IMG/VR virus record: IMGVR_UViG_3300032229_000759
Span: 48,255-112,254 of that record
Source: a virus
Reading direction: 5' to 3' (one strand)
DNA length: 64,000 nucleotides
Shown one piece after another: positions 15,113-60,391 of the stretch. The notes below the pieces were generated by a model, which saw only the letters and a list, made by a program, of their open reading frames with translations, ran no database searches and was not told the DNA's origin. Made by a program: the position numbers and the translations under genes. Each line of letters opens with the position of its first letter. Position 1 is the first letter of the stretch.

Positions 15113-15140
15113 ATTATAGGAACCGACGGCCAAGCGTCAA
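15113..15140 (-). promoter_or_regulatory. Sigma70-type promoter for ssb
   Basis: On the - strand TTGACG (15140-15135), a 16-base spacer and a perfect TATAAT (15118-15113). The -35 box overlaps the stop codon of the DnaE C-terminal gene. Predicted start is about 30 bases before the ssb ATG. Host-type consensus suggests early expression by unmodified host RNA polymerase. Confidence 0.85.
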
Positions 15141-16762
15141 GTTTTCGGAATATACGTTTTTTCAACTATGAGAGAGTCTCCAGACTTCGATCTGTTACCC
15201 TTTACTATAACTACGTTGCCTTCAAACAACGTATTTCTATATAGTTTGTACGACTCTGGAAAGAAAACAACAGAATCAACAGAGCCTGTGCCGTCACTCA
15301 TTGTTACGAAAGCCATCTCTAGTCCAGGAGTTTTGCCCGACTTTGTTTTAGTAACACTGATGGCTTCTATTTCTCCGCATAATATAAGATTGTCTTTAAT
15401 CATGCCATTCTTAAAATCTTTACACGTAATATTAGTCATACTTATATCATACATGTCTACCTTAGAGCAGGTCATACTGCACCCTAAAGTTTCATCCTCT
15501 ATATCGGATATCCAATCAGGATTATCTTCTAGAGCGTATGGTGGCTTATTGAAATTATTAATTAAGCCTAAAATTATATTTTTACGATTCTTGTTTGATT
15601 TACCATTATGATATAAATCATATAGTGCATCCCCCAAACTTTTGTATTTATGTGTTTTATCTGTGATAAAAGAACATTCTTTTTTAGTTAGTTCTGACAT
15701 TAAATTAAATTCAAATAACATAGAAGATCTATTTTTATTGAGATAAGAAAGAGCTCCTGCTTGTATGAGAGCTTTTGCCGATGTAGAATTAATGTTTAAT
15801 AATACTTTCATCAGCATATCTATCCATGTCATAAGATCAAAATCTAAAAATTGTTCATCTTTTAATTTAATGAGTTTGTCGAATACGGACTTACCGAAAC
15901 CTTTAATATCTGTTAGTCCAAAATAAATTTTTTCATTCTTTAATATAAAATACTGATTCATGTTTCTAATGTCTGGCAGCCGCACAGAAACATCCATCTC
16001 ATTAGCATTCTGTACTAATTCCTTGATTTCTGCTTTTGGGTCTATTTTATCTTTAGCAAATCTCAAATAGGCCGCAAAAAAAATTCTTGGAAAGTGAGCT
16101 TTTGTGTAAGCTGATAAATAACTATTAACAGCATAACTAACCGCATGACTTTTATTAAAGGAATATCTTTGAGATTTTTCTATCCATCCGAAAATTTCTT
16201 CTGCTTGTGACGATGATACTAGATTTGCTTTTTGTGAGCCCTCTATAAATTTAATTTTAATTTTAGCCATTTCTTCTGGTTTTTTCTTACCGATGGCCTT
16301 ACGCAACATGTCTGCTTCTTGCAAATTAAACCCGGCTACAACTCTGGCAATTTCCATCGCCTGTTCTTGATAAATCATCTCTCCGTATGTAGTTTTTAAA
16401 ACAGGTTCTAAAACTGAGTGGTAATAATCCACTGATTCTAGTCCATTCTTTTTATCTATATAATGATTAGAAACTGTTTTTCCATCTCTAACAGCCTCTA
16501 AACATCCGGGTCTCAAAATACTAATAAGAGCAGAAAGCTGCTCCATGTTTTGGGGTTTTAATTTTTTAGCCATAGACTTACCAAGCCTAGACTCTAGCTG
16601 AAAACACCCCTTGGTATTACCGTCTGATATAAGATCCCAAGTTCTTTGACAATCTAGATCAATGTTTTCTATTTTTGGATCAAAAATCAATTGCGTGATC
16701 TTATCTCCATCCAAAGACACATTAAAAGAACATCCGCAAGGATACTGAAATTTTTTCGACAT
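15137..16762 (-). CDS. dnaE: DNA polymerase III alpha, C-terminal polypeptide (fingers to OB)
   Basis: 541 aa, own ATG at 16762 three bases after the exonuclease stop. After about 38 novel residues containing PCGCSFNV, it continues DnaE exactly where the other polypeptide stops: WDLISDGNTKGCFQLESRLG, LRPG, TYGEMIYQEQAMEIA, ADMLRKAIGKKKPEEMAKIK and FNKSHAVSYA (fingers), then a helix-hairpin-helix region near residue 295 and an OB fold from about 440 to the end. The palm aspartates are absent here because they are on the 17647-19521 product. Cys9 and Cys11 may form part of a small metal site. No intein C-terminal motif precedes the polymerase sequence. Works as one subunit of a two-chain replicase, by inference. 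Confidence 0.93.
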   Translation of the reverse strand: MSKKFQYPCGCSFNVSLDGDKITQLIFDPKIENIDLDCQRTWDLISDGNTKGCFQLESRLGKSMAKKLKPQNMEQLSALISILRPGCLEAVRDGKTVSNHYIDKKNGLESVDYYHSVLEPVLKTTYGEMIYQEQAMEIARVVAGFNLQEADMLRKAIGKKKPEEMAKIKIKFIEGSQKANLVSSSQAEEIFGWIEKSQRYSFNKSHAVSYAVNSYLSAYTKAHFPRIFFAAYLRFAKDKIDPKAEIKELVQNANEMDVSVRLPDIRNMNQYFILKNEKIYFGLTDIKGFGKSVFDKLIKLKDEQFLDFDLMTWIDMLMKVLLNINSTSAKALIQAGALSYLNKNRSSMLFEFNLMSELTKKECSFITDKTHKYKSLGDALYDLYHNGKSNKNRKNIILGLINNFNKPPYALEDNPDWISDIEDETLGCSMTCSKVDMYDISMTNITCKDFKNGMIKDNLILCGEIEAISVTKTKSGKTPGLEMAFVTMSDGTGSVDSVVFFPESYKLYRNTLFEGNVVIVKGNRSKSGDSLIVEKTYIPKT

Positions 16763-16765
16763 ATA

Positions 16766-17455
16766 TTAGGACCCAAAAGAATCTTTAAACTTTATTTTTT
16801 GACTCAGATTTCTGTGCAACTTAAGGAAACGAATTAATATTTCTGCACAATCTTTTACATCTTTTAGAGCGTCGTGAGCCCCTAATTTAGATATGCCTAA
16901 ATAATCTCTAAGAGTATCTAGTGATAAATTTTTGACATCATTATTGTTTTCAAACCAATAAAAGACCAAATTCATAATATCTAAAACATCTCGTGGATAA
17001 AAAATATCTGATCTGTCTTCTTTATTCACATTACCATATTTACGACTCAAGCGATCTATAATAGGCAAATCAAACCTATTGATATTATATCCCGCAGCGA
17101 TAGGAGCGCTGAACTGACTCTTTTTAGATGATCGAGTATGATGCATCATTAAATAATTGGTAAACAATTTCCATGATTGATCTTGTATTGGATATTCTTT
17201 CCACTCAGATAAAATTTGTTCTTTGGTTGATCCTCTGACCTTAGCATGAAAATCCAGAATATCCGTTTCATAAACATAATTATCATTTTTTTCTAACACT
17301 TCTGGCTTAAAAAAGATATTAAATTCTGAATTAGGCACAATTTCCAACTTAATAGGATCAACAATAACAGCGGCTATTTGTACTGGACTACAACCCCTGG
17401 GATCCGAGCCATCAGTTTCAAAATCAAAAACACATATTTTATTATAGTTAATCAT
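16766..17455 (-). CDS. DEDDh 3'-5' exonuclease (DnaQ-like proofreader)
   Basis: 229 aa, start overlapping the upstream 62-aa gene. Exo motifs are intact: FDFETDG at residues 10-16 (D and E), AGYNINRFDLPII (second Asp) and HDALKDVKD (His and fifth-position Asp of Exo III). It lies between the two halves of the polymerase gene, so it is very probably the proofreading subunit of that polymerase. No clamp-binding sequence stands out. Length is close to E. coli epsilon (243 aa). Confidence 0.93.
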   Translation of the reverse strand: MINYNKICVFDFETDGSDPRGCSPVQIAAVIVDPIKLEIVPNSEFNIFFKPEVLEKNDNYVYETDILDFHAKVRGSTKEQILSEWKEYPIQDQSWKLFTNYLMMHHTRSSKKSQFSAPIAAGYNINRFDLPIIDRLSRKYGNVNKEDRSDIFYPRDVLDIMNLVFYWFENNNDVKNLSLDTLRDYLGISKLGAHDALKDVKDCAEILIRFLKLHRNLSQKIKFKDSFGS

Positions 17456-17643
17456 TAAGCATTCTCTATTTTTTCTACTTGAATTAGCGGCAGCACCTGT
17501 ATTTTTTGGTCAGAATTAGCAGTTACACAAGCATTAAAACATGTACAACAACTTACTCTTTCTTCTGGTGTTTTAACATATTCTATACCATTCATTTTAA
17601 ATTTAGAACCAACTTCTAGGTCCATAAACTTAACCGTACTCAT
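17455..17643 (-). CDS. Small cysteine-containing protein between polymerase genes
   Basis: 62 aa, ATG 17643 three bases after the DnaE N-terminal stop; the stop overlaps the exonuclease start. The start MSTVKFMDLEVGSKFKMNGIEYVK looks like a small beta-barrel (SH3-like) opening, and CCTCFNAC gives three to four cysteines that could bind zinc. No family recognised. Its place inside the replicase cassette suggests an accessory role, but nothing in the sequence proves it. Confidence 0.65.
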   Translation of the reverse strand: MSTVKFMDLEVGSKFKMNGIEYVKTPEERVSCCTCFNACVTANSDQKIQVLPLIQVEKIENA

Positions 17644-17646
17644 ATT

Positions 17647-19521
17647 CTATTCTCCTTTATTAAGCATGTCTGTTATTGTCATAATTTTATCCAACATCGC
17701 TACGCCAAGAATATCGAATTTTATAATTCCCAGAGATTCTAGGTCTTGCATCTCCATTCCGGCTATCATCTGATCGTTTTTTGAATCGTATACCATAGGA
17801 CATAGGGTGTTTAGTGATTGGGCACTTATTGCTATGCCAGCGGCGTGTTTGGATTGATTAGACTTGGTGCCCTCTAATCTTATAGCCTGTTCAAATCTTT
17901 TAGCAAGCGGCCCCTGTAGTTCATTATTATCGTCAATATAACACCATTCTTTGAGTTTTTCTGGCTCATTCTCTAAAGCCCACCTAATAATAGAGGCTTC
18001 CCCAGTCTCCTCTTTCATTTCTTGAAGATCGTCCGCTATTTTAGCTTCGTCTGGAATTCCCTTAGTAATTTTATTCATTTCTTCAAATGAGATATTGCCG
18101 TAAACTCTAAGAACATCTTTTATAGCGCCTCGGCCTTTAATAGTATTGAAAGTAATCATTTGAGATACTTTGTCATGACCATAACACGTTTTAATATATT
18201 CAATAATGTTTTCTCTTTTATTGATAGGTACGTCTACGTCGATATCGGGCATGGAAATATGATCTTTACTATTTCTACCAGCATTATAAAATCTATCAAA
18301 TAAAAGATTATACTTTAATGGGTCTATACTGGTAATACCAATAAGATATGAAACTAAACAACCAGCAGCACTACCTCTACCTGGGCCGGGTAGCCAATTA
18401 TTTTTTCTTACATAGTCCACTATATCTTGCACAATTAAAAAGTAACTAGACAGCCCGGCTCCTTGTAGTACTTCTAGTTCATATTTAATTCTATCGACAT
18501 AAGATACTTGTAATTCTTTATCTATGGCTGGCGCTATTTTATTCTTCCATCCGTGGCGACATAGTTCTCTCAAGTATTCATCAGCAGACATATTATTAGG
18601 ACAGGCAAATGGGGGCAGATTTGGCTTACTGAGTATGTTGTATTCTTCGCACATATCAGTTATAATTCTGGTATTTTCTATTTCTTCTTCTGTGTGCAAA
18701 AAATTCATTTCTTCTTGGGATAGTATATGAAAATTATCCGAAGTAAAAAAACAGCCTAGCGGAACTTCTTCGTCATTACTAATTTTTCTGCTAATTTCCG
18801 GAAAAGTTGTTTTAAGATTATTGCATAATAAAACTCTTTGATCCACAGCATCTTCTTTACGACAATAATGGGCGTCTGGGGTGCCGATAATTTTTGTATT
18901 AGTAAGCTTACTTAGCTCTCTAATAGCATCCGTTAAAATAATCTGTAATGGAGTATTTTCTTTATCCATTAATTGGGCTTCTAGAAAGAAATTCTCTTTA
19001 CCAAATACATTTTGTAACTTACCGATTTCTGTTAATCCAACAGTCTTCCAATCGGGTATAAGCTGATTCTCATGTGTTATTTTATCTGCTAAGTAAGAGC
19101 CTAGATGGCCACAAAACCCAATAATATTGCCAGTTAATAATGAGCCCAAAGTTTCTAAATTAATTCTAGGTTTGTGATAGAAAAAATCTGGACGATTACT
19201 TTCTGAAACTATTTTAATGAGATCCTGCCAACCGGCGTAATTTTTTGCTAAAACAAGAAAGTGACTTAGGTTTTTGTTTTCTTTAGATTGATCTGTAGGG
19301 TCTCCATCACACAAATATAACTCACAACCCAAAATAGGTTTAATATTTTGTTTCTTCATTTCTGCATAGAACTTAACAGCTCCGGCTATATTTCCGTGGT
19401 CTGTTAGGGCACAAGCTGAGGCCCCTATCTCTATGCATCGTTGTGCAATATCTTTGGGTTGTGGTAGGCCGTCCAATAAGCTGTATGTAGAGTGACAATG
19501 GAGGGGATTATAGGTTTTCAT
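17647..19521 (-). CDS. dnaE: DNA polymerase III alpha, N-terminal polypeptide (PHP and palm)
   Basis: 624 aa, ATG 19521 overlapping the upstream nuclease stop. PHP domain ligands look intact: HCH (residues 8-10), TDHGN (40-44), GTPDAHYC (213-220), with CGH near 137. The polymerase part has GPGRGSAAGCLVSY (379-392), the catalytic PDIDVD with D426 and D428, KHAAGIAIS, and the third aspartate in KFDILG (D603). It then stops 21 residues later at LNKGE. The fingers, HhH and OB regions are encoded separately at 15137-16762. The tail shows no intein N-terminal cysteine or motif. E. coli DnaE is 1,160 aa; the two chains together give 1,165. Confidence 0.95.
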   Translation of the reverse strand: MKTYNPLHCHSTYSLLDGLPQPKDIAQRCIEIGASACALTDHGNIAGAVKFYAEMKKQNIKPILGCELYLCDGDPTDQSKENKNLSHFLVLAKNYAGWQDLIKIVSESNRPDFFYHKPRINLETLGSLLTGNIIGFCGHLGSYLADKITHENQLIPDWKTVGLTEIGKLQNVFGKENFFLEAQLMDKENTPLQIILTDAIRELSKLTNTKIIGTPDAHYCRKEDAVDQRVLLCNNLKTTFPEISRKISNDEEVPLGCFFTSDNFHILSQEEMNFLHTEEEIENTRIITDMCEEYNILSKPNLPPFACPNNMSADEYLRELCRHGWKNKIAPAIDKELQVSYVDRIKYELEVLQGAGLSSYFLIVQDIVDYVRKNNWLPGPGRGSAAGCLVSYLIGITSIDPLKYNLLFDRFYNAGRNSKDHISMPDIDVDVPINKRENIIEYIKTCYGHDKVSQMITFNTIKGRGAIKDVLRVYGNISFEEMNKITKGIPDEAKIADDLQEMKEETGEASIIRWALENEPEKLKEWCYIDDNNELQGPLAKRFEQAIRLEGTKSNQSKHAAGIAISAQSLNTLCPMVYDSKNDQMIAGMEMQDLESLGIIKFDILGVAMLDKIMTITDMLNKGE

Positions 19522-38543: not shown

Positions 38544-41267
38544 TTATTCGAGATTGTCTACACAACTGTTATCTGATGTAATTTCACCAGCCACGTTTCC
38601 ATAATTGCATGAGCCGCTTACAAACACAGCATTACCTAGTACAGAACCATAATTATTAGAATAGTTGATAAAATAACCAGAAGATTGAATCGTACCATAA
38701 TTGTTTGATCTTGAAAAAAATCCACGATTTAAATCTCCTTGGTTCGTGCTGGAACTAAATGTACCAAACTGTACCTTACCAAAGTTATAACTATCGCTAT
38801 TAAAATAACCTTCTAGCAAAGCTCCAAAATTATTACTGTTAGAAGTAAAATAAGATGTGGTTTTGGTGTTTCCGGCATTAGTAGCATTATTAAAAGTAAC
38901 GACACCCACATTGTCTAGACTGCCACTATTTGTTCCAAAATAGAATGACACATTACCGGATCCAGTGATATTGCCCTCGTTGTTTGCTAAAACCCCACTA
39001 AATGTAACTGTGCCATTTAATTTAATGTTATCTTTATTTTTACTGGAGTCATTAAACAATAAATTATTAGCATTATTAATACTACCTAAATTAATAGAAT
39101 AATTATAAAATTTAATATTTTTTTGTTGAGACTCAATACTTGATAAGTTTTGACTATAATCAAAAAATTCTATAATAGAACCGTCTATATCTGACTTATT
39201 AGATGAAAAATTATAAAATTTAGCCCTAGATAAAATGTTACCCTCGTTAATTCCACTATTAATAAAAGTACCTAAATCAACTTCTCCTCTGTTGATAGAA
39301 TATAAGCCAAATTGTGCTTCATAACAGGTTTTATAGTTAATAGCATTTTCAGAAAAAAAACTAGCAGATAAACCTGTTCCATAATTTTGACTATTTCCAA
39401 TAAAATTGACTAGGTTCGCCATGCCATAGTTTTTGCTTTCATTTCCAAAAATAGCAGCCTCTATTACGGATCCATAATTCTTACTAACATTATAAAATGA
39501 TCCATTTTTAATTATACCACTATTAACACTACTTCCACTAAAATAACAAAAATCACCCAATCCTTGATTTATGCTGTTGCCATTAAAATACATATTAACA
39601 CCACTGCCATCAACGTCCGACACGGATCTGTCATAAAAATTACCCAGAGACTGTATTTTATTTGAGTTTTTAGATTGATTATAAAATGATCCAGAAAGAC
39701 TGACTATCTTTTTATTAGAACTACTGTCATAAAACAATCCGTGTCTTATGGTTCCAGAATTAATGCCGCTGCTATAGAAATATCCCGAGCCTTGGCTAAT
39801 ATTACCGCTTGCGCCATTATTTGATCCGTTATAAAAATATATTTGTCTACCGTTTATTGTTCCTAGGTTATGTGATTGGTTGTAAAAATAAATTAAATTG
39901 GAACCATTAATACTATTATTATTCAAAGCTTTACTATCAAAAGCGATGTTTTTGGCTTGATTAATACTTCCTTTATTTGGAGAGTTTTGAAAAATACAAT
40001 TAGTAATATCTGTAACATTACCCCTATTTTCACAGCCAGATTGAAATATGCATGTATTAATCTGAGATAGATCGTTTTCATTATGAGAATTATTTAAAAA
40101 TTCTATTTTTATACCGGAGCCGGTAATATGTCCATTGTTTGTAGAAAAATCTGAAAACTGAATATTGCAAGTAGCGTCACTAGAAATGTCACCATTATTT
40201 GAAGACATATTAAAATTGATAATACCGATGCCATCTATTGATCCGCTGCTAGCATTTGCAGAATTTCTGAAGTCGCAGGAGCCACTCGTCAAAGTACCGT
40301 GATTGGTGGAATATTCTAAAATTGAATTGCCTAAAACTTTACCATAATTGTTAGCAAAAATAAATTTAGTATTATTTAAAAGCTTGCCATAATTAGATGC
40401 ATTCCCACTAAAAAGACTTAAGCCATCTACAGCTCCATAATTAGTAGAAGATCCTAAAAATTGACTATAGCCAGAAACGATACCGTAATTATTAGAATCA
40501 ATAAAAATAGTAGGACCCACACAAGTACTATAATTATTACTACCAGAAAAAACAACAGGACCACTTAAAACGCCATTATTAGTACTATTAATAAATAATA
40601 GTTTGCCATCAAGAACTCCGTTATTTGTGCTGTTGTCAAAAGTAAAATTACCATATCCACTAGCAATAGATATCGAGTTGTTAATAAAACTAAATGTGCC
40701 ATCCAACAAAATGCCACTATCTTGAATATCGCAAGCGTCGAAGATGCCAGAGGTGCTTTGTATAATATTTTGAAATTGTTCTCTTCTTTTAGTTATGTCT
40801 GTATTAACAAACTGAACAGTCTCTGTGCTGATATAACAGTCTTCGAGTTGCGAATTCAAGATGAGTCCCGACTTAGCTATATCTAATACAGTATGTTTAA
40901 TAATTCCACTATCTATAGATAAAGATGCAATAGACCACTCACACACGCTGTCTGATTCCCAGTGTTCACATAGTATGTAGGGGTCTATAATTAATATCTC
41001 CCCTTCCATTCTCTCGCACCCAAAAGAAAAATAAACCGGGTCTTCTGGATCAATTAATGTACCAGCTATAATTTTTAAATTAGTAAATTCTAATAAAGGT
41101 ATACGATTAAAACATGAATCAATAGATAAATTTAAAATATAATTAGTCGGTATAATGCTTGCATCATCTATTTCATTTCTGGGAATAGCTCGGTTTGGTT
41201 TTGATAACTGATCGTCTTTGTACCAATTATTAGGATTACAAAAGACTGGAGAAGACGGTTGTGTCAT
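38544..41267 (-). CDS. Repeat protein, predicted beta-solenoid fibre or adhesin
   Basis: 907 aa, ATG 41267. After an N-terminal domain of about 190 residues the protein is built of 15-16-residue repeats of the form (S/T)N(Y/N)Gx(V/L)xGx(S/A)xFxx(G/S)(S/T), e.g. STNNGVLSGPVVFSG and STNYGAVDGLSLFSG, running to the C terminus, roughly 45 copies. Regular hydrophobic positions and Asn ladders indicate a parallel beta-helix. No signal peptide or enzyme motif. Most likely a tail-spike, fibre or host-binding protein; an anti-host decoy is possible. Ends CVDNLE after the last repeats. Lies directly after the dead papain-like gene, same direction. Confidence 0.8.
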   Translation of the reverse strand: MTQPSSPVFCNPNNWYKDDQLSKPNRAIPRNEIDDASIIPTNYILNLSIDSCFNRIPLLEFTNLKIIAGTLIDPEDPVYFSFGCERMEGEILIIDPYILCEHWESDSVCEWSIASLSIDSGIIKHTVLDIAKSGLILNSQLEDCYISTETVQFVNTDITKRREQFQNIIQSTSGIFDACDIQDSGILLDGTFSFINNSISIASGYGNFTFDNSTNNGVLDGKLLFINSTNNGVLSGPVVFSGSNNYSTCVGPTIFIDSNNYGIVSGYSQFLGSSTNYGAVDGLSLFSGNASNYGKLLNNTKFIFANNYGKVLGNSILEYSTNHGTLTSGSCDFRNSANASSGSIDGIGIINFNMSSNNGDISSDATCNIQFSDFSTNNGHITGSGIKIEFLNNSHNENDLSQINTCIFQSGCENRGNVTDITNCIFQNSPNKGSINQAKNIAFDSKALNNNSINGSNLIYFYNQSHNLGTINGRQIYFYNGSNNGASGNISQGSGYFYSSGINSGTIRHGLFYDSSSNKKIVSLSGSFYNQSKNSNKIQSLGNFYDRSVSDVDGSGVNMYFNGNSINQGLGDFCYFSGSSVNSGIIKNGSFYNVSKNYGSVIEAAIFGNESKNYGMANLVNFIGNSQNYGTGLSASFFSENAINYKTCYEAQFGLYSINRGEVDLGTFINSGINEGNILSRAKFYNFSSNKSDIDGSIIEFFDYSQNLSSIESQQKNIKFYNYSINLGSINNANNLLFNDSSKNKDNIKLNGTVTFSGVLANNEGNITGSGNVSFYFGTNSGSLDNVGVVTFNNATNAGNTKTTSYFTSNSNNFGALLEGYFNSDSYNFGKVQFGTFSSSTNQGDLNRGFFSRSNNYGTIQSSGYFINYSNNYGSVLGNAVFVSGSCNYGNVAGEITSDNSCVDNLE

Positions 41268-41282
41268 ATAAATTATATTATA

Positions 41283-42860
41283 CTAGGGTTTAAAATATAA
41301 AGGACCCATATTATCATTTAATAATTTATATTTATGTATAGGATAAAAAGGTCTATAATCTAAATTTTGAGCAGGGAAGCCGTCTACTAGGGACAATGCG
41401 ACTATTAAACCAAATGCTCGTTGTCTGTCTGAGCACTCAAAAGGAACACAAGATCCTTGTTCTGTACAACCTCTGGTCCTGTTTTGATCTTCTGGTAGAC
41501 AGGGCGGTGGGCAATATTGATCTTGACAATCTATAAAATCAGGAGCCCTATTGAATCTTGTTATACAATTTAAGTGACTTTCTGTGATTAAAAAACTACC
41601 CGGAGGAATAGGTCCCCAACTAGGTTCTCCTCCACTATTCCATTCTCCCCAACTATTAGCTATTAAAAAAACACATTCTGGATATTCAATTTTAGTATCA
41701 TCGTATCCTATAATATTATATGTATGATAAATATTTTTATCTGGATAAGTTAAACCTGTTGAGTCCCTCTGGTCTGGAAAACCCACGTTAGTAAATAATA
41801 AAACACCATATCCATTATATAATAAGTCTTTAACACTAGAGATAATATTTGTTGTAACAGCAGATATCGTTCGTGCTCTCTGTACATTTTTAAGATCCTC
41901 TACATTGCCGTATGAATCATAAAAAGATTTTTGAGTGTCTTCTTCGTTTTGTTTTTTAATTTCTATAACAGTATTATTAATATAATCGTAACCATTTAAT
42001 GATTGAAAATGTTTTAGAAACATGTCATTATGACAAGCATAAAAATTAGATCCTGTATTATTAATAAAATTAGCATAACCCCCATAGCTTTTTCTTTTTA
42101 GTATACCTATGTGTTTCAAAATTTTATCAATCCAACCAGACAAAACATTTCCTCCAAATAAATTGTCTTCAGTCGGTACTAAATACGAAAAATCAAACCG
42201 ACTTGTTCCTGGACCTCCACAACATTCATTGATTCTGCGAACACAATCTCCACCACAACAAGGGTTGTCACCAGTATCGTCTTCCGGACAGGCTCCACAA
42301 CTACCGCATATTTTACTCCCATCTTCAGCTAAACCACAGGAGTGCGGCGCTCCAACTGCACCAATAATTGTACCTCCATTTTTTGTATTTTCTATACAAC
42401 TCATATCCCCACAGCCAGTAGCCCTACCAGATAAATTTGTTTCTGATATAATATCTGGTCCTAGCATCATCAAACAATCCCAAAGAGAATTACCACAAAA
42501 ATATTCTAAATATTCCGTCGCCATTCGATGCTCCCATTTAGTATATGACCTACTAGCTTCTATGGCACACGCTCTGGCGAGATCACAGCCGTTTCGTACA
42601 GCATGGGACGTTCCGCTTTTAATAGTGGGTTGAATTTCTGTAAAAGCTCCAGCATCTATAGTGGTCAAAAACTTGTAGGGTAATCCTAATTGGTTAGCTC
42701 CGCTACCATCAATTTTTTGAGAAATTTTATTATAACATGGATACTTCACATGTTTCAAAAATTGTACCATCCTTATCAAGTCATAAGGAGTACCCACACC
42801 CTCATAATTTATACAGGGGTTTAAAGAATATTGATAATATAATTGTTTGGGTGTTAACAT
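41283..42860 (-). CDS. Papain-like protein lacking the catalytic cysteine
   Basis: 525 aa, a paralogue of the 308-aa protease at 44144-45070. Shared blocks are clear: PKQLYYQYS, YPCYNKISQKIDGSG, GTSHAVRNGCDLARACAIEA, YNIIGYDD, ANSWGEWNSGGEPSWGPIP and GSFLI. The His and Asn regions remain, but the residue aligned with the catalytic Cys78 of the paralogue is Gly83 and the oxyanion Gln is Pro78. A long cysteine-rich insert (residues about 145-220, with CGSCGACPEDD and CCGGDC) and a Cys-rich C terminus are extra. Probably not a protease; a binding or structural role in the particle is inferred. Promoter-like element at 42891-42905. Confidence 0.8.
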   Translation of the reverse strand: MLTPKQLYYQYSLNPCINYEGVGTPYDLIRMVQFLKHVKYPCYNKISQKIDGSGANQLGLPYKFLTTIDAGAFTEIQPTIKSGTSHAVRNGCDLARACAIEASRSYTKWEHRMATEYLEYFCGNSLWDCLMMLGPDIISETNLSGRATGCGDMSCIENTKNGGTIIGAVGAPHSCGLAEDGSKICGSCGACPEDDTGDNPCCGGDCVRRINECCGGPGTSRFDFSYLVPTEDNLFGGNVLSGWIDKILKHIGILKRKSYGGYANFINNTGSNFYACHNDMFLKHFQSLNGYDYINNTVIEIKKQNEEDTQKSFYDSYGNVEDLKNVQRARTISAVTTNIISSVKDLLYNGYGVLLFTNVGFPDQRDSTGLTYPDKNIYHTYNIIGYDDTKIEYPECVFLIANSWGEWNSGGEPSWGPIPPGSFLITESHLNCITRFNRAPDFIDCQDQYCPPPCLPEDQNRTRGCTEQGSCVPFECSDRQRAFGLIVALSLVDGFPAQNLDYRPFYPIHKYKLLNDNMGPLYFKP

Positions 42861-42890
42861 AGTTAGCCATAATACGAGATAAGCTATCTA

Positions 42891-42905
42891 TGATATAATA
42901 CACTC
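42891..42905 (-). promoter_or_regulatory. Variant of recurrent promoter-like element
   Basis: On the - strand GAGTGTATTATATCA, about 30 bases before the 42860 start. It differs from GGTGTATTATAAT at a few positions and contains TATTATA/TATATC -10-like bases. Listed because its position before an operon head matches the other copies. Confidence 0.4.
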
Positions 42906-42919
42906 TTGTAATATTTTGA

Positions 42920-43168
42920 CTAATTTGTTGTTAGCTTATTATATAACACTAGTGATAAAACAGCCCCTGCTGCACCAGCAAATAAACCGGCTGGAGACAA
43001 TGAATCGTAACTACCTATTAAATATAGAATAGCTCCACCCATATAGGATCCAGCTACGCCTAAAGCTACGGTTTTTATAAATCCAAAATTCTCTTCTCCG
43101 GGCACTATGCTTTTAGCAATAGATCCCACGAATAAACCATAAACACACCACACTAATAAACTAAACAT
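42920..43168 (-). CDS. GlsB/YeaQ/YmgE-family small membrane protein
   Basis: 82 aa. Three hydrophobic segments with the family pattern: WCVYGLFVGSIAKSIVPGEE, IKTVALGVAGSYMGGAILYL and AGLFAGAAGAVLSLVLY. Members are stress-associated inner-membrane proteins of unknown activity, uncommon in phages. Overlaps the upstream gene by 8 bases; part of the run of small membrane genes up to 47.2 kb, where it could assist holin-type disruption. Confidence 0.8.
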   Translation of the reverse strand: MFSLLVWCVYGLFVGSIAKSIVPGEENFGFIKTVALGVAGSYMGGAILYLIGSYDSLSPAGLFAGAAGAVLSLVLYNKLTTN

Positions 43169-43559
43169 TTGCTGTCTCCACTAGGGTTTGTAGTTCTTCA
43201 TCCGTGAGGGTTTCTCCGTTGTCTAAAAGACTATTAACTATTGACAAAGAATATTTATTATAATCATCAGGCTTCATTTCTCTTCTTAAGAGTTTCTTGA
43301 TTCTCATTTTAGTAAACCATCCTCGGCGAACACTATACTCTTTTACTTGTTCTCCATATAATGAGTATTTCTCGGATAGTGAGCAATCTTTATTCAATTT
43401 ATTTTTATTGCATTCTTGTAGTATTCTTATCAAAGTAAGTATAATACTAATTATCATCAAAATAGTAAAGGGGTCGAAACTATGATTATCATTCTTAGGA
43501 AGATTAGACTTCTCTAAAACTTTTAATGCAATATTTTTAAGTTGTTCTTTATTATCCAT
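43161..43559 (-). CDS. Single-span membrane protein, unknown
   Basis: 132 aa. One transmembrane segment (FTILMIISIILTLIRIL, residues 30-47) followed by a basic, helical cytoplasmic part (TKMRIKKLLRREMKPDD). No family recognised. Small membrane proteins of this layout are common in phage lysis regions. Confidence 0.65.
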   Translation of the reverse strand: MDNKEQLKNIALKVLEKSNLPKNDNHSFDPFTILMIISIILTLIRILQECNKNKLNKDCSLSEKYSLYGEQVKEYSVRRGWFTKMRIKKLLRREMKPDDYNKYSLSIVNSLLDNGETLTDEELQTLVETANV

Positions 43560-43561
43560 TA

Positions 43562-43885
43562 TTATTTACCTTGTGGCTTTTTAATAGGGCAAACACCATT
43601 GGGACAATCATTTTTGACTGGGGCAGCCGCGGCTTGAGTTGACAATCCTTGTTCTGGTTCGCAATAATTACACTCTATTTTTTTAATACCATCACCACTC
43701 ATATACCATCCCTTGCCTTTGCAAACGGGACAATCTTTGCGCTTGTGTTTAACAACAGCGTTGTCTGAATGCTTGCTTTTAATAATAGCTCCAGCAAGTG
43801 TTACTGGAGCGGTCGTAGATCCATAATATGGTCCGCTGAACCATAATAATGAAACACCCAATAAACAAATAATGCTTTTATTCAT
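43562..43885 (-). CDS. Exported protein with DnaJ-type zinc motif
   Basis: 107 aa, ATG 43885 with GGAGAAAA. Signal peptide MNKSIICLLGVSLLWFSGPY, then a CPVCKGKGWYMSGDGIKKIE ... CNYCEPE region like the DnaJ CxxCxGxG zinc repeat, and a C-terminal DCPNGVCPIKKPQGK. Probably periplasmic. Function unknown. Confidence 0.65.
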   Translation of the reverse strand: MNKSIICLLGVSLLWFSGPYYGSTTAPVTLAGAIIKSKHSDNAVVKHKRKDCPVCKGKGWYMSGDGIKKIECNYCEPEQGLSTQAAAAPVKNDCPNGVCPIKKPQGK

Positions 43886-43886
43886 T

Positions 43887-44090
43887 TTATTTTCTCCATG
43901 GAAGAGGAACTATATTGTCTATAGTATCAACCACTTTTTTAAGAGGTCGTGGACGATTAGGTTTATTTACTGGGGGATTGTCAACTTTAGGCTTTGGAGA
44001 TAGTTTGATTATTAGATTAACCAAACGTTCAAGAACACTTACTATCAGATTTACGAGACCTCGTATTTTTAATCGATCTCTAAGATTCAT
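43887..44090 (-). CDS. Small amphipathic, proline-rich protein
   Basis: 67 aa from ATG 44090, preceded by AAGGAG; the longer frame from 44126 would start inside the promoter-like element. An amphipathic helix (LVNLIVSVLERLVNLIIKL) is followed by a Pro-rich linker (PPVNKPNRPRPLKK). Likely membrane-associated. Function unknown. Confidence 0.6.
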   Translation of the reverse strand: MNLRDRLKIRGLVNLIVSVLERLVNLIIKLSPKPKVDNPPVNKPNRPRPLKKVVDTIDNIVPLPWRK

Positions 44091-44110
44091 AGAATACTCC
44101 TTATGGTATA

Positions 44111-44124
44111 TATTATAATACACC
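44111..44124 (-). promoter_or_regulatory. Recurrent promoter-like element before 44090
   Basis: On the - strand GGTGTATTATAATA, containing a perfect TATAAT, ending 21 bases before the ATG. It forms with downstream bases a near-palindrome ATGGTGTAT...ATATACCAT. A weak TTAGAC lies 17 bases upstream of TATAAT. Confidence 0.6.
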
Positions 44125-44143
44125 ATTAATAGCAGTCTAATAA

Positions 44144-45070
44144 TTATAGATAATCATCAAATCCGTAGTCTGGTAGTTTTTGTACAGGAAAGCCGTCAAA
44201 GTTGCTAAATGCGTATGCTCCGTTTTGAGCCAGCATACCTTTTGCTACATCTGCATGGATTAAAAAAGAACCGTCTGGGATAGGACCCCAATCTGGATGT
44301 CCACCGTCGTTCCATTTACCCCAACTGTTTTGAACCAGGAATGCTAATTCTCCATTAGTATCATCGCATGCTGTCCATGCCATAGCATGTGCCCATGAGC
44401 CAGACTGTTTAGCAAAACCTTTTTTATCTCGTGTGCTACTGAATCCATAACTAGAACAAACACTTAATCCATAACCATTAGCTAAAGCGTCTCGTGCTTC
44501 TTCTACTGTTCTTACAAGACTGACTGTTTTTATTTGATGGTCATTTGCTAAATCTATAACGGGGTCTGGCAATCCTCGACCACCCCATCCTGCTCCAAGC
44601 ATACCTTGATACTTAGAAAGATCTACAACGCCCTTATAGTTTTTCCTTACTAAAACACCACCATACTTACTCACAAACTCTGCTGCTCTAGCACAACTCA
44701 TACCCTGTCCGCCGTGTCCACGAGCACCGTAAATCCCCTCTGTTGCGCCCCTGGCTATCCAACTCTCTCTATCTGCATGAACATCAATTTCTACTGCTCG
44801 ACTAATATCACAAGCGTTTCGTGTAGCATGTGAAACACAATCTCCAGTAACTTGTCTTTCATTATAAGGATGTTTATCAAACTTTAAAACACTCTTATAG
44901 GGGGTTGACAACTTGCCTTTTCCTGTGCCGCTTACTCTTCTGCTAGCATCACCAAATAATGGATATTTAGACACCTCCATTAAATGGTCATATACGTGAG
45001 GCTCCCAAAGGCACCCGCTAAATCCTTGACGATACTGATCGTATAATTCTTTTGGAGTAAAACGTGGCAT
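44144..45070 (-). CDS. Papain-like (C1A) cysteine protease
   Basis: 308 aa, ATG 45070 in a TAATG junction. Complete triad visible: RQVTGDCVSHATRNACD (oxyanion Gln73, Cys78), GSWAHAMAWTACDD (His228) and LVQNSWGKWNDGG (Asn248). No signal peptide. Papain-type enzymes are rare in phages. It could process virion or host envelope proteins, or act in lysis, as it sits in the membrane-protein run. The paralogue at 41283 keeps the fold but not the nucleophile. Confidence 0.88.
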   Translation of the reverse strand: MPRFTPKELYDQYRQGFSGCLWEPHVYDHLMEVSKYPLFGDASRRVSGTGKGKLSTPYKSVLKFDKHPYNERQVTGDCVSHATRNACDISRAVEIDVHADRESWIARGATEGIYGARGHGGQGMSCARAAEFVSKYGGVLVRKNYKGVVDLSKYQGMLGAGWGGRGLPDPVIDLANDHQIKTVSLVRTVEEARDALANGYGLSVCSSYGFSSTRDKKGFAKQSGSWAHAMAWTACDDTNGELAFLVQNSWGKWNDGGHPDWGPIPDGSFLIHADVAKGMLAQNGAYAFSNFDGFPVQKLPDYGFDDYL

Positions 45071-45561
45071 TATTTACTAGCCTCATTATAAGCCCAGGCT
45101 AAAGCATTAAAACCCTCTACTGCCTTAACTCTTAGGTTAGAAGTTAAATTAATGTTATCATCCCCGATACTTGCTACAATAACTTCTTTAGCTTCTTTGG
45201 GTAGATCAGCATACTTACCCTTGATGTCTAATCGTAGCATAACACCGGCTATGCTATTAGCTTGACGAATTTCATCAGTATTTTTGATTACTAAATCTTC
45301 ACCATCTAGTTGTACTAATCGGCCCAAATCTATGCTTAAGTCTCGTAATCTTTTGAAATCGTTTTTTGAACCATTAGAAGCTTTTAACAAATTAATTACG
45401 TCTTGTGCTTCTTTCTTAACATTTTCATCTGATGGAGATACCAATTCCATGACATCTATATTAGTAGGATTATTATTTCCTCTTAAAAAATTCAAATCAA
45501 ATTTAGACAAGCCTAATATGATTAGTAGACCAGCAATCGCTAGAATAATTTTATTATTCAT
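45070..45561 (-). CDS. Membrane-anchored protein, unknown
   Basis: 163 aa, ATGA overlap upstream and TAATG downstream. N-terminal transmembrane segment (IILAIAGLLIILGLSKF), helical periplasmic part with SIDLGRLVQLDGEDLVIKNT. No motif recognised. Directly coupled to the papain-like protease and so a candidate anchor or substrate. Confidence 0.65.
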   Translation of the reverse strand: MNNKIILAIAGLLIILGLSKFDLNFLRGNNNPTNIDVMELVSPSDENVKKEAQDVINLLKASNGSKNDFKRLRDLSIDLGRLVQLDGEDLVIKNTDEIRQANSIAGVMLRLDIKGKYADLPKEAKEVIVASIGDDNINLTSNLRVKAVEGFNALAWAYNEASK

Positions 45562-45932
45562 TTGACTTCACCTTCTTTATTGGCACAGATCGTGGGACTA
45601 AGATAGGGAAACATTTGATCAGCAACCTTCACGGCTTCTGCACAACCATTTTGTACTGCTAGGTCTCTGGTCTGTTTCCAGCTTACGACTAATTTAAAAA
45701 ATGTATCTTCGTTGATTTTAGAAGCTACATTATCAAAAGCTACTGGTGGAATGGTAGGAGTTATTGACTTAATGCCCTTAAACTTATCAACCAAATCCGC
45801 TACTAGTTTTTGAACTGGACTGAGTTTATCTTTAAATAAAACCCATAGTACTAAGCCCATACCGGCATATAGGGCTAGGTCTGTGCCACTCACCCTGCTA
45901 CTAAACTCTTGAAAGCTTTCTGTAAAATTCAT
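45558..45932 (-). CDS. Small single-span membrane protein
   Basis: 124 aa. A short periplasmic start, a hydrophobic segment GTDLALYAGMGLVLWVLFKDK (residues 15-34) and a helical tail ending with two cysteines. Spanin-like in size and layout, but no lipobox or known motif. Function unknown. Confidence 0.6.
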   Translation of the reverse strand: MNFTESFQEFSSRVSGTDLALYAGMGLVLWVLFKDKLSPVQKLVADLVDKFKGIKSITPTIPPVAFDNVASKINEDTFFKLVVSWKQTRDLAVQNGCAEAVKVADQMFPYLSPTICANKEGEVK

Positions 45933-47898: not shown

Positions 47899-48567
47899 CT
47901 AAAAGTTTTCAAAAGTGCTATTATTTTGTGTAATCAGCTCTAATCCATTTAATGAGTTTACTTTTAATCCATACAGATTAGCTTTTTTAATGTTCTGAAT
48001 CTGGCTAATATTCCAAATATTGCCGTTGCAGATAATATTAATGGGTACTTTTTTGTTGATAAGGGCGGAAGCTAGGATATTATCGTTGATATCATCTAAA
48101 GCATATCCTGTTGACGGATATATGGTGTTAATATTATGATCAATTAGTATTTGAGCAACTTTGTACAGTAATTCGTATGTAAAAACCCTGTATTCGAGAA
48201 TATATCTGAGTTCTACACTATATTTTTCACAAATTTCTTTATTGTATTTAATATCGTCTCTAAATTTTTCATACTTACGATTACAAAAATTATATGGTTG
48301 TGCTACCACATTAATAATGGTTGCTCCATTTTTTATTGCTGTTTCTATAGCTGCTCCACGAGTTTTAGTATCTAAAATACCAAATGGATAATCTATAGAA
48401 GAAGCTATTTTAATACCAGTAGTTGAACTAGTCAGTGCTTTAACAAGTCTGATCTGCGGAGCGAATACGCCGATAGTGGAGGGCTTAAAAGTTATAGCCT
48501 GCTGAATATTTTTTCTAATTTCATCATCAGATAATGAAATATCATATATGGAATATTCAATAATCAT
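47899..48567 (-). CDS. DeoC-like (deoxyribose-phosphate aldolase fold) protein, catalytic Lys missing
   Basis: 222 aa, ATGA overlap with the ClpP-like gene. TIM-barrel pattern of DeoC is visible: IKIASSIDYPFGILDTKTRG (for TVIGFPLG..TT), AIKNGATIINVVAQ, EICEKYSVELRYILE and NTIYPSTGYALDDIN (for FIKTSTGF). In the last, the Schiff-base Lys is Tyr; the lysine in the next strand (K-P-A-G-G in DeoC) is replaced by ICNGN and the strand-4 Asp by Asn. So the usual aldol reaction is not expected. It may bind a phosphorylated sugar or be repurposed. Confidence 0.7.
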   Translation of the reverse strand: MIIEYSIYDISLSDDEIRKNIQQAITFKPSTIGVFAPQIRLVKALTSSTTGIKIASSIDYPFGILDTKTRGAAIETAIKNGATIINVVAQPYNFCNRKYEKFRDDIKYNKEICEKYSVELRYILEYRVFTYELLYKVAQILIDHNINTIYPSTGYALDDINDNILASALINKKVPINIICNGNIWNISQIQNIKKANLYGLKVNSLNGLELITQNNSTFENF

Positions 48568-50061: not shown

Positions 50062-50401
50062 AGGCTAATGATTTTCTTGCGTGACTATCTATAAATGCCA
50101 TGTTGGTACTTATATAATAAGCACTCATGAGTTTGGTGCCAGGAGGTATATTACAAGCATAGAACGCTATAATCTCATTGTCTTCTTTTGCCAAGTCTAC
50201 TAAAATCGGCCTTGTCCAACCAAAAGATAAGTCTATGTGTTGTTCAAAAATGTTCTGTAAACAAACTGGGATAGATTCATCTTCTTCGTTGATCTGAATT
50301 GATATGGGGACATAATTAGTGTCTGATAAAGAAACCACACACCTCTCTAGTCTTTCTATATCATAAGAAGCAACTAATAATTTTAGACTATTAATGAGCA
50401 T
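50054..50401 (-). CDS. Unknown protein preceding sigma-factor-coupled genes
   Basis: 115 aa, overlapping the sigma factor gene by 11 bases. Starts with helix MLINSLKLLVASYDIERLER then VPISIQINEEDESIP, FGWTRPILVDLAKED and FYACNIPPGTKLM. Alternating strand/helix pattern. No motif I can assign. Confidence 0.55.
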   Translation of the reverse strand: MLINSLKLLVASYDIERLERCVVSLSDTNYVPISIQINEEDESIPVCLQNIFEQHIDLSFGWTRPILVDLAKEDNEIIAFYACNIPPGTKLMSAYYISTNMAFIDSHARKSLAYV

Positions 50402-50975
50402 ATGTTCTAATTCTAGCTAGTCCCTTTTGGATATTTTGACGAATTGCTTCTCTCGTCACTCCAAAAATATTACCTATTTCAGATAATGTTTTTTCTTCAA
50501 AATAGTACAGTCTAATTTGTTCTCTTTGTTTATCTGTAATAATACCAGAATTTAATAGATTATTAATGTTTGACTTTAATAATGAGTCAGACTCTTTGTT
50601 TTCTAATAGGGTCGCAGGGTCATACTCTATATTGTCTGGAATATTATTTGTAAAATTTATGTCATAAGCATCTACATTATCTAGAGAATAATGAGTATTT
50701 TGTTTACGATACTTATTAGTCAAATAAGTTTTAATAGCCCATATACCACACTGATTACGATAGGAATATTTAGTTTTTGACTTACCATTAAAGCCTACTC
50801 TATCTTTGTCCCACTTCCAGTCGCCGACCATAATTGCAGATGCTATATCAGCTATCGCATCATCATTATTTAAAAGCTCCTGCCTTAAAGAACCATAAAA
50901 TGTAGGAGCAAATTTAGAAACTATTTTTTTCGCTAAAGTTATATACGTAGACAGACTATCAAACTGTTTTTCCAT
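50391..50975 (-). CDS. Phage RNA polymerase sigma factor (sigma70 family)
   Basis: 194 aa. Region 2-like part with SYRNQCGIWAIKTYLTNKYR (core binding and -10 recognition helix) and a complete region 4 at the C terminus: TDKQREQIRLYYFE, TLSEIGNIFGVTREAIRQNI and a final basic LARIRTYAH. Region 1 and 3 are reduced, as in ECF-like or phage late sigma factors. Would direct host core polymerase to late promoters. The recurring GGTGTAT element is one candidate target; no direct evidence links them. Confidence 0.88.
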   Translation of the reverse strand: MEKQFDSLSTYITLAKKIVSKFAPTFYGSLRQELLNNDDAIADIASAIMVGDWKWDKDRVGFNGKSKTKYSYRNQCGIWAIKTYLTNKYRKQNTHYSLDNVDAYDINFTNNIPDNIEYDPATLLENKESDSLLKSNINNLLNSGIITDKQREQIRLYYFEEKTLSEIGNIFGVTREAIRQNIQKGLARIRTYAH

Positions 50976-57286: not shown

Positions 57287-58219
57287 TTATAGAATGGGTC
57301 TTATTATACCATTACCCTCATATGCTTTCATGTCTTTGTATCTCAAATCCTTTAATCTCCATGTCTTTTTAGCAAAGACAGCGATGTAGTCATTGCTAGA
57401 TTTTAGCATATTTTCTAAAGAAGCAAACTTGATTTTCTTAGCATAACTGAGTAAAAGTGCCGCACAACCAACAGCGAATGGAGTAGCCATACTAGTCCCT
57501 GTCATAGAAGCGTAGCCATTGCCGGGTACAGCACTGACTATATCTTCTCCTGGCGCTAAAAAATCCAACTCTTCTCCACAACAACTGAAATCACATAAAG
57601 ATAAATTTCTATCAATTGCTCCTATACTAATTGTGTGTGGGTATTTAGCTGGATACTGTATTCCTGATTCTATGCCGCTGTTACCAGCAGCACAAAAAAT
57701 AATTACATTTTTTTGACAAGCATAATTAATAGCTTTTTCTATGTGAATGGATGGATATTCTGATCCTAGAGACATGGTTAGCATATCGGCTCCGTGGTCC
57801 ACAGCCCACACAATGCCTTCTGCGACATTTTTATTACTTCCAGACCCCTGACCATCAAGCGCTTTAATAGGCATGATCTTGGCTTTAGGAGCAACTCCCA
57901 CCATACCTATGCCATTATTTATGGCAGCTATTGTGGCTGACACATGAGTGCCATGACCATTATCATCTTGTGGGTCTGATTTTTTATCAATAATATTGAC
58001 ACCACTAATTAAATTATCTTTAATATCTTCATGAGTTAAATCGCAACCAGTATCTATTACTGCTACAGTAACATTTTCTCCCTCAGAATATTTCCATTGT
58101 TTGGCAACATCAAATTTTTGAATAGGCCAACTGTAAAACTGTGTAGAGGTTGTTGATAAACCATAAATATCAGTTCTAATATGTGGTAATAATTTACATT
58201 GTTTTCTATTATATAGCAT
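57287..58219 (-). CDS. Subtilisin-like serine protease (S8)
   Basis: 310 aa, starting 7 bases after the protease stop upstream. Complete catalytic set: AVIDTGCDLTHEDI (Asp56), DDNGHGTHVSATIA (His89), CAAGNSGIESG (oxyanion Asn180) and GTSMATPFAVG (Ser243). No signal peptide or propeptide, only about 45 residues before the catalytic core, so it may act inside the cell or be exported by other means. Subtilases are unusual in phages and could cut host or prohead proteins. Directly downstream of an exported trypsin-like protease. Confidence 0.93.
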   Translation of the reverse strand: MLYNRKQCKLLPHIRTDIYGLSTTSTQFYSWPIQKFDVAKQWKYSEGENVTVAVIDTGCDLTHEDIKDNLISGVNIIDKKSDPQDDNGHGTHVSATIAAINNGIGMVGVAPKAKIMPIKALDGQGSGSNKNVAEGIVWAVDHGADMLTMSLGSEYPSIHIEKAINYACQKNVIIFCAAGNSGIESGIQYPAKYPHTISIGAIDRNLSLCDFSCCGEELDFLAPGEDIVSAVPGNGYASMTGTSMATPFAVGCAALLLSYAKKIKFASLENMLKSSNDYIAVFAKKTWRLKDLRYKDMKAYEGNGIIRPIL

Positions 58220-59117: not shown

Positions 59118-59495
59118 TTATTTGCGCATCCACTGCAAGTATTCTTTCATATTCGAAAATCCTCTTTTATGTTTCTTTTCTATGTTATTTTGTATAATAA
59201 TACTGTGTGGGATTAATGATATTTGATATTCTTTCATTAATTCAGGATTAGTATCAGAATCAACAAAACATATAATATAATTCTCAAATTGATCTTCAGA
59301 ATTTTTAATCTCTTTTTCCAATACCTTACAATATTTGCACCAATCCGCAGTAAATATAACTAATAAATTTTTGTGAGCTTGATTAGATTCTATTACAGCA
59401 TCAATCATAGACTCTAAATATACGGGACTTTCTGCATACGTATGATTTATGCCTGATGTCACTACGATGAATAGTAATAATAAAATAATTTTCAT
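59118..59495 (-). CDS. Exported thioredoxin-like protein
   Basis: 125 aa, ATGA overlap with RuvB. Signal peptide MKIILLLLFIVVTSGINHTY with an Ala-Glu type cleavage near residue 21, then LLVIFTADWCKYCKVLE with the redox CKYC and a following cis-Pro in ISLIPHSIII. Periplasmic disulfide exchange protein, possibly folding the cysteine-rich phage proteins or exported proteases. Last gene before a 129-base gap containing the protease promoter element. Confidence 0.88.
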   Translation of the reverse strand: MKIILLLLFIVVTSGINHTYAESPVYLESMIDAVIESNQAHKNLLVIFTADWCKYCKVLEKEIKNSEDQFENYIICFVDSDTNPELMKEYQISLIPHSIIIQNNIEKKHKRGFSNMKEYLQWMRK

Positions 59496-60391
59496 TTCTT
59501 GTAAGCACCTAAAACCCTTCCTTTTTGAGTTCTGACTACGAATCCTTTTCTAACTAAATATGGCTCAATACTATTTTCAATAGTTTCTATAGCAATACCT
59601 GTCATAGAAGATATGCTTTTTAGACCCAAAGGATTGCCGATAGACTTTTGTAATAGCTGTAAATAGATTCTATCATAGTTGTCTAACCCATCGTTATCAA
59701 TCCCTTGATTTTGGAAAATTTCATCTACGCTCATATTTTTTTCAGCATAGTACGCTTTGCAGTTTTTGTACCACAACAATCTGGCATTTAATATACGTGG
59801 TGTTCCTTTGCTTCTGCGAGCAATTTCTGTCAAATCTTCATCATCAATCATTAGTCCGAACTTTGTAGCGTTCAACCTTGCTAGTTTAGCTAGGTCATCT
59901 ACAGCATAAAAACTTAAGTGTTCTTTAATTTGAAATCTATCGTAAAAGGGTTGGCTTAAACTTCCTCCACTGGTAGTAGCCCCCACTAATGTGAACATTG
60001 GTAGTTCTATATTTTCTGGTTTATTTTCTACTACAATAGATAATACAAAATCCTCTATGACCGGATATAGAAATTCTTCCACCAACTTAGGTAGTCTGTG
60101 GATCTCGTCAATGAATAAAACCGATCTTGGTGCTATACCCATTAAGTAAGGCAAAATATTTTTTACACTACGAATATTTGCCCCGTTCACTGTATACAAA
60201 TTAACATTCAACTCCGTAGCAATAGCACTGGCTATGGTAGTCTTACCCAATCCCGGTGGGCCGTCTATTAAAACATGGGGCATCGTAGCATCAGAGTTTT
60301 TACAGCCGCGAGTTAATACTCGTAATCTGTCAACCACATCTGACTGTCCAACAATATCATCGAAGGTACTGGGTCTAATCGCATTTGCCAT
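59492..60391 (-). CDS. ruvB: RuvB-like Holliday junction helicase
   Basis: 299 aa (bacterial RuvB about 335). Core matches RuvB closely: RPSTFDDIVGQ, DGPPGLGKTT (Walker A), SVLFIDEIHRL (Walker B D95/E96), LVGATTSGGSLS (sensor 1), PFYDRFQI (arginine finger region), RRSKGTPRILN (sensor 2) and a winged-helix C terminus ending RTQKGRVLGA. ATP-driven branch migration. RuvA and RuvC homologues of normal type are absent from the window, but the gene just upstream resembles RuvA domain III. Confidence 0.93.
   Translation of the reverse strand: MANAIRPSTFDDIVGQSDVVDRLRVLTRGCKNSDATMPHVLIDGPPGLGKTTIASAIATELNVNLYTVNGANIRSVKNILPYLMGIAPRSVLFIDEIHRLPKLVEEFLYPVIEDFVLSIVVENKPENIELPMFTLVGATTSGGSLSQPFYDRFQIKEHLSFYAVDDLAKLARLNATKFGLMIDDEDLTEIARRSKGTPRILNARLLWYKNCKAYYAEKNMSVDEIFQNQGIDNDGLDNYDRIYLQLLQKSIGNPLGLKSISSMTGIAIETIENSIEPYLVRKGFVVRTQKGRVLGAYKK

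Follow-up and report, generated by a model that had tools for sequence, protein, structure and literature searches.

A predicted papain-fold pseudoprotease, encoded near its intact homologue in an environmental phage, is paired with a repeat-protein gene in an exchangeable module

A protease gene that has lost its nucleophile and persists close to a relative that keeps it raises the question of what use a phage may have for the protease fold once catalysis is gone. The question is posed by a 64,000-nt stretch of viral DNA (IMG/VR record IMGVR_UViG_3300032229_000759, positions 48,255 to 112,254; hereafter the window, meaning the whole stretch analyzed), in which a preliminary description made from the sequence alone had recognized an active papain-like protease of 308 aa (protein A) and a 525-aa paralogue with a dead active site (protein B), for which it proposed a binding, scaffold or inhibitor role, perhaps in the virion beside a repeat protein. 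Both open reading frames (ORFs) were found where they had been placed, on the minus strand (Table 1) and with B five genes from A in gene order. Our analysis points to B as an ancient, catalytically dead homologue of A that would work without cleavage.

Protein A is predicted to be a papain-fold protease with intact catalytic residues. Gln73, Cys78, His228 and Asn248 stand at the positions first reported for them, and the same four residues occur in 161/161 distinct A proteins, two apparent exceptions in the residue table being B fragments from loci without the A region. In the AlphaFold2 (AF2) model of A (predicted local distance difference test, pLDDT, 91.2), Cys78 opens a helix spanning residues 78-98, and the top 50 Foldseek matches of this model in the PDB are C1A proteases at probability 1.00, with xylellain first (E = 8.5e-09). 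A profile of the A family compared with C1A structures holds the His and the NSWG motif in register; the modeled fold is that of papain, and the catalytic residues are those of peptidase family C1. Direct searches of A and B with Pfam, PHROGs, NCBIfam and phmmer returned nothing useful. The window's A has no Pfam match and does not reach the PF00112 cut-off, and within the A family this domain was matched weakly by 9/32 close members (best E = 0.0015) and by 2/40 diverse members (best E = 4.5e-06); a weak cyclophilin match for A was dismissed as chance. A is encoded by hundreds of IMG/VR contigs, the search with the close family yielding 337 relatives and a broader profile at least 545, and further A genes are present in six bacterial metagenome-assembled genome (MAG) contigs, four of which are planctomycete. 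Two different and independent intein-like inserts interrupt A in other loci exactly at the active site (L096:6710-8728 and L104:4998-6944), one right after the catalytic His, between SWAH and C, and one between NSWG and C; the window's A contains neither.

Homology between A and B is, as judged by alignment, far beyond chance. BLASTP joins them in two collinear blocks (identity 42% and 35%; E = 6e-23 and 3e-15), and a profile-profile comparison (hhalign) lays B 2-438 on A 4-285 with probability 100 (E = 8e-42). The alignment had been described as running over the whole length, which holds for all of A but not for B, where the insert (approximately residues 117-328) and the last ~85 residues have no counterpart in A. 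The active sites were compared through alignments and secondary structure. Pro78 and Gly83, originally assigned to the Gln and Cys positions of B, both exist, and Gly83 is supported as the counterpart of Cys78 of A, but Pro78 is probably not the Gln equivalent: because hhalign sets Gln77 of B opposite Gln73 of A, with the loop after the Gln one residue longer in B, and because 22 of the 25 distinct B proteins have a Gln there, the supposed loss of the Gln is probably wrong, and the Pro78 assignment probably an artefact of counting without gaps. B has lost the Cys together with the GDC motif but probably kept the Gln as Gln77, and the His and Asn blocks remain in the window's B, as reported, at H379 and N402. 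The AF2 model of B has a pLDDT of 77.9 and a predicted template modeling score (pTM) of 0.83, and its top Foldseek matches are all C1A, with probabilities up to 1.00 and a best E-value of only 2e-3 over matches of ~110 residues. Since the predicted fold is that of papain and the Cys nucleophile of family C1 is missing, B was classed as a papain-fold pseudoenzyme and not as a peptidase; a modeled fold that is kept, a catalytic residue that is lost and a gene under selection together give it the character of a pseudoenzyme. A superantigen-like match for B (PDB, E = 0.46; NCBIfam, 17 bits where the cut-off is 396) and a weak NDUA8 match of the B profile were dismissed as chance.

The loss extends to every relative of B. 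Profile searches recovered approximately 31 contigs with 25 distinct B proteins, in which the Cys column is occupied by Gly (20), Ser (2), Ala (2) or Thr (1) and never by Cys, and the Cys-His pair of the site is found in none; His is kept in 19 (lost in 6) and Asn in 16 (lost in 9). BLASTP offers an alternative pairing of Ser82 of B with Cys78 of A, yet the residues at column 82 vary among S, A, H, G and C across relatives, so no conserved substitute nucleophile stands there. Were B still an enzyme by a changed mechanism, such as a transferase or ligase in which Ser82, Thr84 or a Cys of the insert attacks with the help of the retained His379 and Asn402, one could account for the kept Gln77, for the T or S found at position 84 in 19/25 proteins and for the persistence of His and Asn together in 16/25, including the deep branches L111, L113 and L114. 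This we hold to be very improbable, as none of columns 82, 83 (G/S/A/T) and 84 (T/S/V/I) conserves a nucleophile, six B proteins of the same clade lack the His, and L122, the only B in which a Cys adjoins the site, has neither His nor Asn.

Gene duplication followed by loss of the nucleophile had been the proposed origin of B. The loss is borne out in 25/25 proteins, but the duplication was not recent: in a tree containing 24 B proteins, read without a root, B forms a single fully supported clade apart from all A proteins. Judged from sequence, B is an ancient homologue of A that lost its Cys. Loss of the Asn maps to the branch leading to L100-L112, several members of which then lost the His as well, so that the site decayed further while the gene was retained. 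The ratio of nonsynonymous to synonymous substitution rates (dN/dS) of B is 0.08-0.18 in close pairs and 0.38 in the deepest pair (L113/L114), and that of A is 0-0.07; purifying selection on B indicates a gene that is maintained without catalysis and is not decaying. With the nucleophile lost throughout and the gene maintained, the functions suggested at the outset are best narrowed to binding or scaffolding without catalysis; many genomes that lack B conserve A, which makes inhibition of A the less likely role.

What B may bind is suggested by its neighbor. The gene directly after B encodes a 907-aa protein of Asn-, Ser- and Gly-rich repeats that suggest a beta-solenoid, and a large ORF lies closely 3' of B in 22/25 distinct B loci, in most of them encoding a repeat protein and often overlapping B or separated from it by at most 15 nt. 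Most of these ORFs share a recognizable N-terminal domain (in the most diverged ones by eye only), and the two genes vary together as a module, in agreement with the early linking of B to the repeat protein. The Cys-rich insert of B was likewise verified, its C155, C175, C202 and C213 being conserved in 24-25 of the 25 proteins, and a second Cys-rich stretch (C445-C476) was found besides it. In two basal B proteins of 729-750 aa (L113:3778-6030 and L114:9995-12184), extra C-terminal sequence takes the place of the downstream repeat gene, as if the repeat partner may have become fused. Scans for promoters and terminators near B gave matches at about the chance expectation.

The pair occupies a region that is exchanged against a conserved backbone, as would be found for a fibre or adhesin module. 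Beyond the gene of an 82-aa membrane protein, most relatives carry a variable region of glycosyltransferases, epimerases, or a deaminase with ribonucleotide reductase; others carry B with a long protein there, and tail-like repetitive proteins or 'DxDLxxVVTG' proteins are found in the same region. Other phages with the A-B pair, for which a search had been proposed, do exist: among 27 large contigs, A is present in 27/27 and B in 11/27, being absent from 16, and every B contig that spans the position of A has A. Loci that appeared to hold B without A (L001, L085, L094, L106, L112 and the window-derived L083 and L084) are stretches that end before or around that position. Between the window and its relative L002, the DNA is 90% identical over 42974-45701 and A is 99% identical; the identity stops at 42974, inside the 82-aa gene, beyond which identity between the B proteins is 45% over aligned positions (tblastn, 35%) and no DNA alignment of the repeat genes is obtained. 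L056 and L072 likewise have A proteins that are 98% identical and B proteins that are 56% identical, and the presence of B on the A tree requires approximately nine changes, at least five of them forced by well-supported branches. Modules for host interaction typically show such a patchwork, as do surface-glycan genes.

These patterns bear on whether B instead regulates A, as a pseudo-inhibitor or activating partner that binds A or its substrates and controls proteolysis within the same operon. Pseudoenzymes often control their active relatives, B lies on the strand and in the gene cluster of A, and A is present in each of the 11 large contigs with B; however, A is highly conserved in the 16 large contigs without B, a near-identical A accompanied by a very different B is a poor fit to a co-evolving A-B interface, and it is the repeat protein, not A, with which B is linked. 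We consider regulation of A an unlikely role.

We instead favor a binding or scaffold role, in which the papain fold of B, with its altered site and Cys-rich insert, would serve the repeat protein, possibly in a physical complex, and B and the repeat gene, placed where the conserved A cassette ends, would be exchanged as one module. This module would most likely encode a fibre or adhesin of the virion, in which B would be the connector, cap, chaperone or receptor-binding part. Taken whole, we regard this reading as evenly poised between right and wrong. Several observations weigh against it: the 16 B proteins that keep both His and Asn include that of the window; the basal B loci L111, L113 and L114 have no downstream repeat protein, and two of these proteins have extended C-termini in its stead; the 907-aa protein has no family annotation and matches no known fibre family in PHROGs; A, B and the repeat protein have no homologue in 50,697 cultured-phage records; and glycosyltransferases and further accessory genes occur in the variable region as well, so exchange alone is no proof of adhesion. 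As the repeat protein has neither a cultured relative nor a family annotation, a virion location is something we infer for the pair. Alternatively, the infected cell could produce B and the repeat protein not as virion parts but as effectors that are secreted or displayed on its surface, for instance in superinfection exclusion, which would suit both the surface-glycan genes that otherwise fill the variable region and the many conserved Cys of B, which fit an oxidizing location. However, neither protein showed a transmembrane (TM) segment or a signal-like hydrophobic one, and we judge this explanation highly doubtful.

Table 1. Features of the A-B locus and other genes located in the window, with the basis of each assignment or its occurrence among A loci
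Feature	Position	Strand	Basis or occurrence
Protein A, predicted papain-like cysteine protease of 308 aa with intact catalytic residues	44144..45070	minus	ORF, homologues and model
Catalytic codons of A	Q73 44852-44854; C78 44837-44839; H228 44387-44389; N248 44327-44329	minus	
Protein B, 525-aa papain-fold pseudoprotease (predicted)	41283..42860	minus	homology to A, relatives and model
Site codons of B	G83 42612-42614 (Cys column); Q77 42630-42632; H379 41724-41726; N402 41655-41657	minus	
Insert of B absent from A, approximately residues 117-328, with Cys-rich stretch C150-C214	41877..42512	minus	hhalign gap region
907-aa repeat protein, repeat length 15-16 residues, next gene after B (15-nt gap)	38544..41267	minus	repeat periods of 15 and 16 by autocorrelation
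82-aa three-TM protein, Transgly_assoc PF04226, last backbone gene before the exchangeable module	42920..43168	minus	Pfam E 7.3e-06
132-aa single-TM cassette protein, TM 29-47	43161..43559	minus	143/154 close, 28/85 distant A loci
107-aa protein, hydrophobic N-terminus, CxxCxGxG-like motif, downstream of A	43562..43885	minus	151/154 close, 58/85 distant A loci
163-aa protein, N-terminal membrane anchor, upstream of A with 1-nt overlap	45070..45561	minus	152/154 close, 81/85 distant A loci
124-aa cassette protein	45558..45932	minus	145/154 close, 38/85 distant A loci
310-aa subtilase	57287-58219	minus	Pfam S8, E 2.8e-54
DNA polymerase in two ORFs (624 and 541 aa), with a 229-aa ORF and a gap between them	15137-19521	minus	phrog_405
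Sigma-70 region 4 protein	50391-50975	minus	Pfam E 8.9e-13
RuvB-like helicase	59492-60391	minus	Pfam E 6.8e-46

The cassette that surrounds A raises a separate question, namely whether A acts in lysis. A small CxxCxGxG-like protein with a signal-like N-terminus is retained after A even in very distant phages, and in two planctomycete contigs (L117 and L118) its relatives have lipobox-like signal sequences. In eight large A contigs (G001, G003, G004, G006, G009, G011, G020 and G024; 170-244 kb and possibly incomplete), none of the six peptidoglycan-hydrolase families searched (Amidase_2, phage lysozyme, M15_4, SLT, M23 and NlpC/P60, others not being covered) was found, and a subtilase is present in 7/8 of them and in the window's own record (G000); in L119, a subtilase lies within the A cassette itself. 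The joint pattern of absent hydrolases and present subtilase suggests either an unusual lysis or endolysins that have diverged fast, and is consistent with lysis or entry through proteolysis. A and its membrane-protein cassette might accordingly be imagined as a lysis unit with a protease in place of the endolysin, B then being a relative with no lytic action that attaches to the same protein of the wall or surface. The retention in distant phages of the anchored protein, A and the CxxC protein resembles a holin/spanin/enzyme layout, and the planctomycete contigs with distant A genes point the same way as the hydrolase and subtilase counts. Against this, endolysins diverge fast, the hydrolase search covered six families in genomes that may be incomplete, the holin match is weak (E = 0.006), and in L117 the cassette adjoins capsid and cement genes, which fits a role in the virion or its assembly equally well; such a lysis unit seems to us improbable. 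A bolder version, in which active A, with the subtilase, opens protein-rich envelopes instead of an endolysin and dead B on a repeat fibre holds the same surface protein uncut, we regard as decidedly unlikely; if true, a protease would have been turned into a receptor-binding protein.

Among the remaining genes of the window, the split DNA polymerase (Table 1) possibly reflects an intervening homing element. The search for the terminase large subunit (TerL) matched a short P-loop ORF in the record from which the window comes, and this ORF was taken as a PhoH-like gene and not as TerL.

Protein A shares with the C1A peptidases (papain and the cathepsins; xylellain, PDB 3ois; the Clostridioides difficile cell-surface cysteine protease, PDB 4d59) the fold, the Cys that opens the central helix, the His and the NSWG motif. 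It differs in a family that lies mostly below PF00112 detection, in its cassette of membrane proteins, in having no recognizable secretion signal and in the spacing between Gln and Cys, which is 5 in A and 6 in papain. This family is encoded by hundreds of environmental phage contigs and by no cultured phage record searched. Dead enzymes retained as binding proteins are known in eukaryotes, and SERA5 and silicatein are inactive papain-fold proteins in which the Cys has become Ser; no phage dead papain-like protein was described in the literature searched. PMC10318531, which mentions several inactive papain-fold proteins, describes DUF1175 as inactive and as binding peptidoglycan. B resembles SERA5, silicatein and DUF1175 in a fold that is kept, a nucleophile that is lost and a role that is presumably binding or structural, and it departs from them in usually carrying Gly rather than Ser, in belonging to a phage, where it has a Cys-rich insert and a repeat protein as its neighbor, and in that no sequence relation was found beyond the fold. 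A loss of Cys that is ancient and family-wide, after which His and Asn decayed step by step, makes B, with an intact relative nearby, a clean natural test of a protease fold without catalysis. The module has its nearest counterpart in phage tail-fibre modules, in which a fibre gene is accompanied by an adjacent adhesin or chaperone, e.g., gp37/gp38 of T4. The partner in the B module is a dead protease encoded upstream, with no PHROGs fibre match; what the two arrangements have in common is a long repetitive protein and a smaller partner that are swapped between otherwise alike phages.

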